This document shows, one piece after another, positions 18,262-21,474 of a stretch of DNA of 64,000 nt. A program made the position numbers and the translations under genes. The notes beneath the pieces were generated by a model. The model did no database searches and had not been told where the DNA came from. It saw nothing but the letters and a program-made list of their open reading frames with translations. The stretch is from Sporodiniella umbellata. Its lineage: Eukaryota; Mucoromycota; Mucoromycetes; Mucorales; Rhizopodaceae. The stretch lies in NCBI GenBank assembly GCA_025677835.1, contig JAIXMR010000090.1, positions 22,501-86,500 of the forward strand, written 5' to 3'. Numbering within the stretch: position 1 is the first letter of the stretch; the number at the start of each line of letters is the position of its first letter.

Positions 18262-18740
18262 ATCCAAAGAAAAGTCGATATTTGTACACGGTAAGATCAT
18301 GGTTCATCACCCGATATATTCTAGACTTGCACGAGAAACATCCCTTTTATGTGGCAGGTGTAAACATTGACCTTTTTAAAAAAAAAAAAAAAAGAGTGAG
18401 TGAGGATGTCAGTGTCATTCTATATGCTATATGCACTGCTATGTGCGCTAACCTATGTACATCTATGTGAGTGTGTGTAGGTGGGTTTCTTACTGCCCTT
18501 TCTATTATCTTTTATCTTTCTCCTTTTTTAATAATCTCTTTTCTCCCTTTTTTAAATTTTTTTTTTATTTTTTATTTTATTTTTTTTTTTTTTTTGAAGC
18601 GGAGGCAAATCTCTTTGCTCTCATTTCACTTCTTTTTTTTTTTCTTTCTCTCTTTTTTTACTATAAATTTTTTTTTTTTCCCCCCAAAAAACAAACAAAC
18701 AAAAAAAAAAAAAAAAAAAAAAAACAGTACAAAAAGAGTA

Positions 18741-19465
18741 ATGATGAACAAGCCAATAGAGAACGGCGATAAGATCAAGCGCAAGAGACTCAAGGTGATC
18801 AGTGCCTGTGGAGAGTGTCGAAGGAAAAAGACGAAATGTAACGGAGAGTATCCTTGCACGGGGTGTGTGAAGGCCAACGTTGAATGCAAATATATTATCA
18901 ACGAAAAGCCGGGGGTTCCTACGTCGATTATCCGCGAGCGGCTGAACAACAACGTTCATCTGATTACACAACCAGTGCGCAAGAAATCTGCATCGCCGCC
19001 TGCACCCACCCACACGCACCATATCGAGTCAATCGAAGAGCGACTGTCTACGATTGAAGATATCCTACGGAACTTGCTCGGTTCTTCCGATCGACACAAG
19101 CATATGCTGGACACCCTTGACACCTACCCTGCTTACCACAGCCCAAGAGTACTTCACCGGGATCTTTACCCCCCTTTCCATGTTCCCGCTATCCAAAACG
19201 GGCTGCTGTCACGGGAAAAAAGAGCTCGAGAAGAGGAGGAAGAGGAGCCCAGACCTCAGCTGGCTCCTATCAAATCCATCCACACCGTCGGCACCCCCAC
19301 CCTCAGGAACTTGTTAAACGATGATCTTCCTCCTCTTTCTCACCCTTCCCTGCCTCCCAACTCTAACGCCCCCTCTTCAGCATTTCATAGATTATCGCCC
19401 AACACTAATACACCTTTTCATAACGACACTTCATTTACGGTTACGCATAGCCCCACCACCACTAT

Positions 19466-19496
<31 letters not shown>

Positions 19497-19550
19497 GCTA
19501 CTGCTGCTGCTGCTGCTGGAGAGCATACAGCACCTTCTCCTTCCTCTTAA
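18741..19550 (+). CDS. Zn2Cys6 binuclear-cluster transcription factor (small)
   Basis: Single exon, 269 aa. The N-terminal cluster has Cys23, 26, 33, 39, 42 and 49 in the CX2CX6CX5CX2CX6C pattern of Gal4-type fungal regulators, preceded by a basic stretch (KIKRKRLK). A short helix (IESIEERLSTIEDILRNLLG, about residue 95) may be the dimerisation element. There is no fungal_trans middle-homology domain; the rest is Ser/Pro/His-rich, ending in a poly-Thr/poly-Ala tract encoded by ACT and GCT repeats. The frame is open upstream to 18471, but that part is Phe/Lys from homopolymers. The tandem ATG at 18741 sits just before the basic region and is the likely start. Target genes unknown. Confidence 0.78.
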
Positions 19551-19915: not shown

Positions 19916-21474
19916 TTATAGGCCAATCATGCCAAAGATACAGATGTTAGCCACAAAAGGCACCAATACTGTTTTAGCCACAAAGTAAAACAACATGCCA
20001 AAAGCAATAGAGATGGGTAAGGCTGGTAGGGCTTTTTGATAGATGGCCAAAAGAAAGATGGTGGCTGTCAAGCCTGTCAAGACCGCAATCGTACAACAAA
20101 CGGTGGTGATCCAATCAAACATAGCGGCTCGAGCCACCAACACACTGTAGAAAACAAAGTCACCCAATCCCAACTTGAGGCCAGTGCGTTCTTCTTCTTT
20201 TTTTGGGAGTTCATCCAGCCGTGGACAAAAAAGGGTTATTTATTTGTTTTTCCTTTTTCATCGCTTTGCTTACCAGTGTCTTTGTGTAACGCTGGTTCTT
20301 CCAACCGCATGAATCCGTCCTCTCTTGGACTCTGCATATGTTCTGTACTGGCCATCATGAACCAGACAGCATTTACCGAGTAAAGCAATGCAGGCACATC
20401 TCTCTGTTGTCTTTTGGAACTTTCGATCAATAGCTTTAAAGGCCCAAATGGACAGAGCACAGCAATCAAATCTAAGATACATCAACCTATCAATACATAC
20501 ACAATCAAAGTATGAGCGTACCCCAGACAGCCAACAAGCCCAACAAAATCCAGGTGGTCCATTGTTCTAACCCGGTCAGAGAAAAAGCCATCAGGGAGCT
20601 CATCAGTGTAAGATAGGCTTGTTGTAACCAAAGAGGTCCTTTCCAAAAGATGGACACCAAGCCTACAATGGCAAAATTCCAAAGAGCAAAGACCAACGTA
20701 GGATAATCCAAAGGGATAAAGAATACCTGCACCAGATTCCTAAACAGAAAAAGGTTGGCCCATGTCACATACATGTCTATTCTATCTACAATAGCAAGAG
20801 GTAACTCATAAATCCCAACAAGAGCAAGACAACCACCATAAAAAAACCGATCAAGACCTTGATCCATCCTTTCTTGAACAAAAACACAATCAGGATAGTC
20901 ACACCAATGATCTGGGCAATGATCACGATCGCCGTAATAAACGAATTGCCAATGGAAGGGCTTGTGCTGGCACTGGTCGTACTCACCGTACCATAGTTCG
21001 GTCGGGTAGGACTTTAGATAGGCCGTTAAAGATCCGTTGCGAGTGTCACCTCCTTACCTATAATCGCTTTCTCCACTAAACGAAACCTTGACCCAGAAAA
21101 TACTAAGTAGGATACAGGCTACCACAGGTTGAATGATATGGTAGATCTGTTGGGTATAAAATATCAAATCTTCATCTTTTTCTTTGCTTGTTTTAGAAGG
21201 CGTTGAAAGATCTTGTAAAGGTATATCGTCTATAGAAAACGATTGGTTTCCTTGATTTCTTTAGACTCTTTTTTTTTTCAAAAAAAAAAAAAAAAAAAAA
21301 ACCTATGAAATTCTGTCGGTTCTGAATGGCAGCTTGACATGTCTTGTAATGTTCTTGTTGCCAATGGCTTGTTTGACATTCCGTACAACAATAACGAGGT
21401 CCTTCTGAGCCACAAGAAGAACACATAAAGGCTGCTGGCTTTTGACATTCAATACAACTCAACTCATCGCTCAT
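19916..21474 (-). CDS. predicted MYND-finger/presenilin fusion, GxGD intramembrane aspartyl protease
   Basis: Presenilin is the catalytic subunit of gamma-secretase, cleaving membrane proteins within the bilayer. Exons: 21474-21303, 21229-21058, 21011-20790, 20739-20522, 20471-20274, 20193-19916 (419 aa). Exons 2-6 encode the presenilin core: catalytic Asp262 in LLAVWDLIAVLCP, Asp339 in KLGLGDFVFYSVLV, and the C-terminal PALP at 384-387. The large loop between them is short (about 60 aa). Exon 1 encodes a complete MYND zinc finger (Cys7, 10, 18, 21, 29, 33, His42, Cys46). Exon 2 has no upstream Met in its frame before a stop, and exon 1 joins it in phase (G|AC). The exon 1 donor is GT followed by about 20 T, so it is weak. 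The alternative is a separate MYND protein ending in a poly-Phe tail. Presenilin identity is firm; the fusion is inferred. Confidence 0.82.

Follow-up and report, generated by a model that had tools for sequence, protein, structure and literature searches.

A predicted MYND-finger presenilin in Sporodiniella umbellata and its probable single origin in fungi and aphelids

We analyzed a 64,000-nucleotide stretch of the Sporodiniella umbellata genome (hereafter called “the window”), and found that its minus strand carries, from 21474 to 19916, one presenilin gene of six exons. The predicted spliced protein has 420 residues, with a MYND-type zinc finger placed before the presenilin core. Presenilin is the subunit that does the cutting in gamma-secretase, the membrane protease that gives rise to the Alzheimer's peptides; much about the role of this enzyme is still to be learned in organisms other than animals and plants. 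We consider it likely that the protein is the presenilin of a complete gamma-secretase with a cytosolic MYND finger, which was probably joined to it once, long ago, and has been kept, and which would serve in peptide docking. The preliminary description of this DNA had joined the MYND exon and the presenilin exons into a single predicted protein. The gene model confirms this observation, and its interpretation as a MYND–presenilin is supported by the occurrence of the same fusion in relatives.

Exon 1 (21303..21474; this and all of the following gene features lie on the minus strand) contains the ATG start and the finger (residues 7-46) in 57 codons plus one base, and aligns over its full length with the Rhizopus arrhizus protein P0001. 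It ends in phase 1 and joins in phase to 21229 through intron 1 (21230..21302), a 73-base GT...AG intron with a T22/A10 tract. With its ATG, its complete set of C4-C2HC ligands and this intron, the MYND exon is complete and in phase with the presenilin frame, as originally claimed. Exon 2 (21058..21229) encodes the linker motif DIPLQDL and the first transmembrane segment. Exons 3 (20790..21011) and 4 (20522..20739) encode core regions corresponding to positions 43-113 and 104-185 of the Pfam family PF01080, and exon 4 reaches the first catalytic Asp (WD), the codon of which is split by an intron. Exon 5 (20274..20471) supplies the remainder of this codon, LIAVLCP and the cytosolic loop (PF01080 177-256), and exon 6 (19916..20196) supplies the second catalytic Asp in KLGLGD, the PALP motif and the stop codon (PF01080 327-408, 144 bits); the acceptor of the last intron, at 20197, is a choice made in the exon model. 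The presenilin frame was also correctly said to lack a Met of its own: a TAA at 21263-21261 lies in this frame upstream of 21229, and no Met occurs before the end of exon 2.

The spliced protein matches the Presenilin family (PF01080) with an E value of 6.7e-110 (368.1 bits; cut-off 34.3) and, besides this family, only zf-MYND (PF01753); the signal peptide peptidase family PF04258 gave no match at E 1e-3. Both catalytic Asp motifs and PALP are present in the predicted spliced protein (VWDLIAVLCP, KLGLGD, PALP), as in the presenilin/gamma-secretase family (MEROPS A22A). By sequence, the top solved structure for the core is human presenilin-1 (PDB 5a63 chain B, E 7.3e-72), and all four presenilin matches in a profile search of the genome fall within the 21474-19916 gene. 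The finger, CIECQKPAAFMCSSCGSEGPRYCCTECQTSHWQQEHYKTC, matches the full C4-C2HC zinc ligand pattern. Against a cut-off of 22.7 bits, zf-MYND scores 21.1 when the spliced protein is scanned, 24.6 with the unspliced reading and 25.7 in a six-frame search of the genome. The finger is therefore borderline if judged on Pfam score alone, and it is the relatives that confirm it. A chance match of a 40-residue finger was ruled out by the conservation and the kinship of the presenilin fingers, as described below.

Could the region instead be split between a gene for a small MYND protein and a separate presenilin gene whose true first exon was missed? The MYND frame is open, when unspliced, to a stop at 21193 (alternative reading 21193..21474, 93 residues, if intron 1 is retained), and the donor of intron 1, GTTTTT within a stretch of 22 T, is weak as compared to the other four donors of the gene (GTAAGG, GTAGAT, GTACGC and GTAAGC). 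Against these features stand the kinship of the presenilin fingers to each other and the Mucorales alignment, where the window is one of 14 rows and 10 of the 14 have DIPLxDL directly behind the join. Above all, many other genomes have models with the same order in one protein, and we therefore hold two separate genes to be very unlikely indeed. Within the single gene, the weak donor may cause partial retention of intron 1, yielding the 93-residue MYND-only product, and a second in-phase acceptor read from the sequence (CAAG ending at 21251) would add 7 residues if used. T-rich introns are not strange here, because an intron of the nicastrin gene in the same genome has a GTAAG donor followed by 13 T (boundary inferred), and the window holds many such runs (36 of T and 40 of A of at least 14 bases, the longest 38 bases).

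The linker pattern [DEN]I[PAQ][LMI]x[DN]L, which includes the DIPLQDL of the window, is present in 11 of the 47 aligned rows, 10 of which belong to the Mucorales (14 rows, window included). A different linker motif, AQx[IL]N, lies within the first 300 residues in 21 of the 151 relatives, mostly in an RGN-x-AQxIN-like context. Its carriers are chytrids, Glomeromycotina, Umbelopsis, Calcarisporiella and Syncephalis (for example P0106:61, P0117:95 and P0031:260), and a stricter form of the motif was not found in the window. This motif could possibly act as a second cytosolic docking site.

When the spliced protein was used as the query, 7993 candidates were scored and 1949 matched; the following counts refer to the best 120 of these. 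According to their precomputed Pfam annotation, 79 of these 120 have zf-MYND and Presenilin in one protein, Mucoromycota included, and 41 have PF01080 without PF01753; the two-domain layout proposed from the window thus recurs in single proteins elsewhere. The closest among the matches listed is P0001 of Rhizopus arrhizus, aligned over 100% of the protein with 67% identity and with 29 of the 40 finger residues identical. The 79 two-domain carriers include Rhizopus, Mucor, Phycomyces, Lichtheimia, Umbelopsis, Mortierella and their kin, as well as Rhizophagus, Gigaspora, Basidiobolus, Syncephalis, Catenaria, Blastocladiella and many chytrids, and also the aphelid Amoeboaphelidium protococcarum. 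Rows for alignment were picked by hand from the best 120, one or two per lineage and not at random, giving 60 in the main alignment; a rescan of these 60 members found both domains in 52, the choice having included seven without a visible finger. When the ligand pattern was applied to 151 relatives, the finger was intact in 81, partial in 14 and absent in 56.

Several of the 56 fingerless models begin in, or just before, the presenilin core. In P0110 (R. stolonifer) and P0020 (Parasitella), the N-termini resemble an out-of-frame reading of the finger exon: aligned to frame 2 of this exon in the window, they score 89 and 48, respectively, and the best of 300 shuffles score 42 and 35. As these two exceed their shuffles, some absences of the finger are cut or misframed gene models; in the same test, P0026 and P0081 fell below the best shuffle (28 versus 37 and 33 versus 39). 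The finger is likely to be truly absent in Gonapodya (P0115) and Piromyces (P0122), because their models have long N-termini with no finger. Hyaloraphidium is not informative, since its model starts within the first transmembrane segment, and the model of a second aphelid, Amoeboaphelidium occidentale (P0079), has no finger. The four animal presenilins among the matches listed (tick, chiton, limpet and ant) have PF01080 only. Together with Gonapodya and Piromyces, they indicate that the finger is not needed for presenilin as such. No named non-opisthokont was among the matches listed, either in the best 120 of 1949 or in the best 120 of 125 from a later relative search, which were nearly all fungal, and the aphelid finger used alone as the query for further MYND-presenilins retrieved itself as the single match. 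Extra domains occur in P0031 (Rhizophagus irregularis; GGACT) and P0125 (Batrachochytrium salamandrivorans; ARM/HEAT), which may be merged gene models.

A layout common to many early-branching fungi and an aphelid is expected to be old and probably useful. Was it formed once? The six-frame search found 12 zf-MYND matches in the genome, the presenilin finger and 11 others, and 75 of the 81 intact presenilin fingers of relatives align better to the presenilin finger of the window than to any of those 11. The Amoeboaphelidium protococcarum finger, for instance, scores 105 against the window presenilin finger and 63 against the best other. Consequently, one old fusion is likely: the finger was probably joined to presenilin a single time, no later than in the last common ancestor of the sampled fungi and aphelids, and maintained thereafter. 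Repeated capture of MYND fingers by fungal presenilins would instead draw on the six exceptions (P0042, P0048, P0051, P0087, P0116 and P0126), which score equally well (P0051 is a tie) or higher against another finger of this genome, as in Rhizoclosmatium P0126 (71 versus 80) and Nowakowskiella P0087 (61 versus 75). The control of this kinship test consists of the other MYND fingers of one genome, and a 40-residue domain carries little signal. Given the preference of the other 75, as well as the position of the finger N-terminal to the core in the intact rows with a printed position, we regard several independent fusions as improbable. When the window protein is compared with six relatives, the core is 74-84% identical, the finger 60-72% and the linker 26-56%, with the finger above the linker in every one of the six comparisons. 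The conservation of the finger is thus evident from the sequences themselves.

The age of the single fusion favored here is less firmly fixed. In the core tree (48 tips: 46 relatives, the window and human PSEN1; the N-terminal alignment has the 46 and the window), the window groups with Rhizopus arrhizus with a support of 84. The deepest splits have supports of 39 and 43, and the position of the aphelids, nested within the fungi, has a low support of 58-72; the tree therefore gives no firm date for the fusion. Should outgroups prove to be without the finger, the fusion would unite aphelids and fungi as a shared derived character.

Does the genome encode the rest of the protease? Nicastrin (E 1.7e-17), Aph-1 (E 1.7e-27) and PEN-2 (E 3.7e-10) are all matched in the same genome above their family cut-offs, as had been suggested for examination alongside the presenilin. 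Because all three partners accompany the presenilin, a full gamma-secretase in Sporodiniella umbellata is likely. The preliminary description had also treated a presenilin in a fungus as notable in itself; the presenilin is present here, but gamma-secretase in non-Dikarya (early-diverging) fungi has already been reported (PMC10406608). A signal-peptide-peptidase-like gene (120537-121801 of contig C165 in genome G000; L012:1016-2280) ends approximately 45-65 bases before PEN-2 on the same strand, the gap depending on the PEN-2 start codon chosen. It reads GLGN, and the signal peptide peptidase at L011 of the same genome reads GLGD. The GLGN gene may encode an inactive protease next to the gene for a gamma-secretase subunit, with an assembly error as the alternative. 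A third match to a signal-peptide-peptidase-like gene lies at L013/L014 (G000:C128).

How might the finger work? Human-family presenilins have nine transmembrane segments and a cytosolic N-terminus. As the human N-terminus is cytosolic, a cytosolic position is expected for the finger too, with about 35 residues separating it from the first transmembrane segment. All 82 intact fingers, that of the window among them, retain the Gln and Trp residues of the peptide groove. The corresponding residues are Q529/W533 in DEAF-1 and Q546/W550 in BS69; the Gln and Trp of the DEAF-1, ETO and BS69 fingers grip a proline-containing peptide (PMC3555993, PMC4742278), and MYND fingers differ in their binding partners (PMC3555993). 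The same pair is present in the ZMYND10, ZMYND12 and ETO fingers found in the PDB sequence search, and it therefore marks MYND fingers generally rather than a known partner. Its conservation shows that the predicted domain is a competent MYND finger, and says nothing about what is bound.

A cytosolic peptide-docking module is the most likely role. The gene product would be the presenilin, the catalytic subunit, of a complete gamma-secretase of the fungus, with the MYND finger built in. A cytosolic partner, or the tail of a substrate, would offer a short proline-containing peptide for the finger to bind, and docking would either recruit this protein to the membrane-bound protease or position the protease in the cell. 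A more specific proposal, which we offer tentatively as a possibility, is that fungi and aphelids have a gamma-secretase of their own kind, an addressable intramembrane protease whose MYND finger selects substrates or partners through short proline-containing peptides in their cytosolic tails, and that this enzyme is as old as the fungal radiation and was lost together with presenilin in the Dikarya. The main rival to peptide docking, which we judge rather unlikely, is that the finger serves assembly, stability or placement (folding, trafficking or turnover) by giving trafficking or chaperone proteins a point of attachment, and does not recruit substrates. ZMYND10, the top solved structure by sequence for the finger (E 1.9e-6), is a dynein-assembly cofactor, which speaks for this rival. 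The Caenorhabditis elegans MYND protein CHB-3 is likewise reported to mediate guanylyl cyclase localization to sensory cilia (PMC2991246). A ciliary role, however, fits poorly with the Mucorales and Mortierella, which keep the finger, and with Gonapodya and Piromyces, which seem to be without it. The former two lack cilia and the latter two come from flagellated groups, a distribution that argues against a ciliary role and not against placement in general.

In comparison with the gamma-secretase of human PSEN1 and PSEN2, the window protein shares the core, both catalytic Asp residues, PALP and the three partner subunits in the genome. In contrast, it has the N-terminal MYND finger, a shorter loop between the sixth and seventh transmembrane segments, and Trp rather than Tyr before the first catalytic Asp. 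This Trp is present in 147 of 152 sequences, window included; WD in place of YD was considered as a hallmark of fungi and rejected, since the Trp is shared by the four invertebrate presenilins among the matches listed. Having been retrieved by similarity to a Trp-bearing query, these four say little about animals at large. The window finger matched those of ZMYND10, ETO/CBFA2T1, DEAF-1 and ZMYND8 in the PDB sequence search and has the peptide-groove Gln and Trp of the ETO, DEAF-1 and ZMYND11 (BS69) fingers. It differs from all of these in being carried by a polytopic membrane protease, whereas theirs belong to transcription or dynein-assembly factors. The finger had been proposed to stand in place of the usual presenilin N-terminus. 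The finger is indeed present, but the N-terminus is not wholly replaced, because about 35 linker residues, and more in many relatives, stay between it and the first transmembrane segment.

That no MYND presenilin had been described was true of the open-licence literature searched, where no title or abstract start among the papers listed describes the fusion, but not of the protein databases, where the layout is visible, for example in the UniRef “MYND-type domain-containing” entries P0021 and P0023. The two matches to presenilin or secretase in the study on early-diverging fungal gamma-secretase (PMC10406608), one of them in its reference list, make no mention of a MYND finger. A binding module on the cytosolic side of a fungal gamma-secretase would offer a direct handle on its partners, its substrates and any role apart from catalysis, and the fusion suggests that a folded domain can be accommodated at the N-terminus of presenilin. 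Elsewhere in the window, on the plus strand at 18471-19550, a reading frame contains a Zn2Cys6-like motif, CGECRRKKTKCNGEYPCTGC, recognized by eye only.
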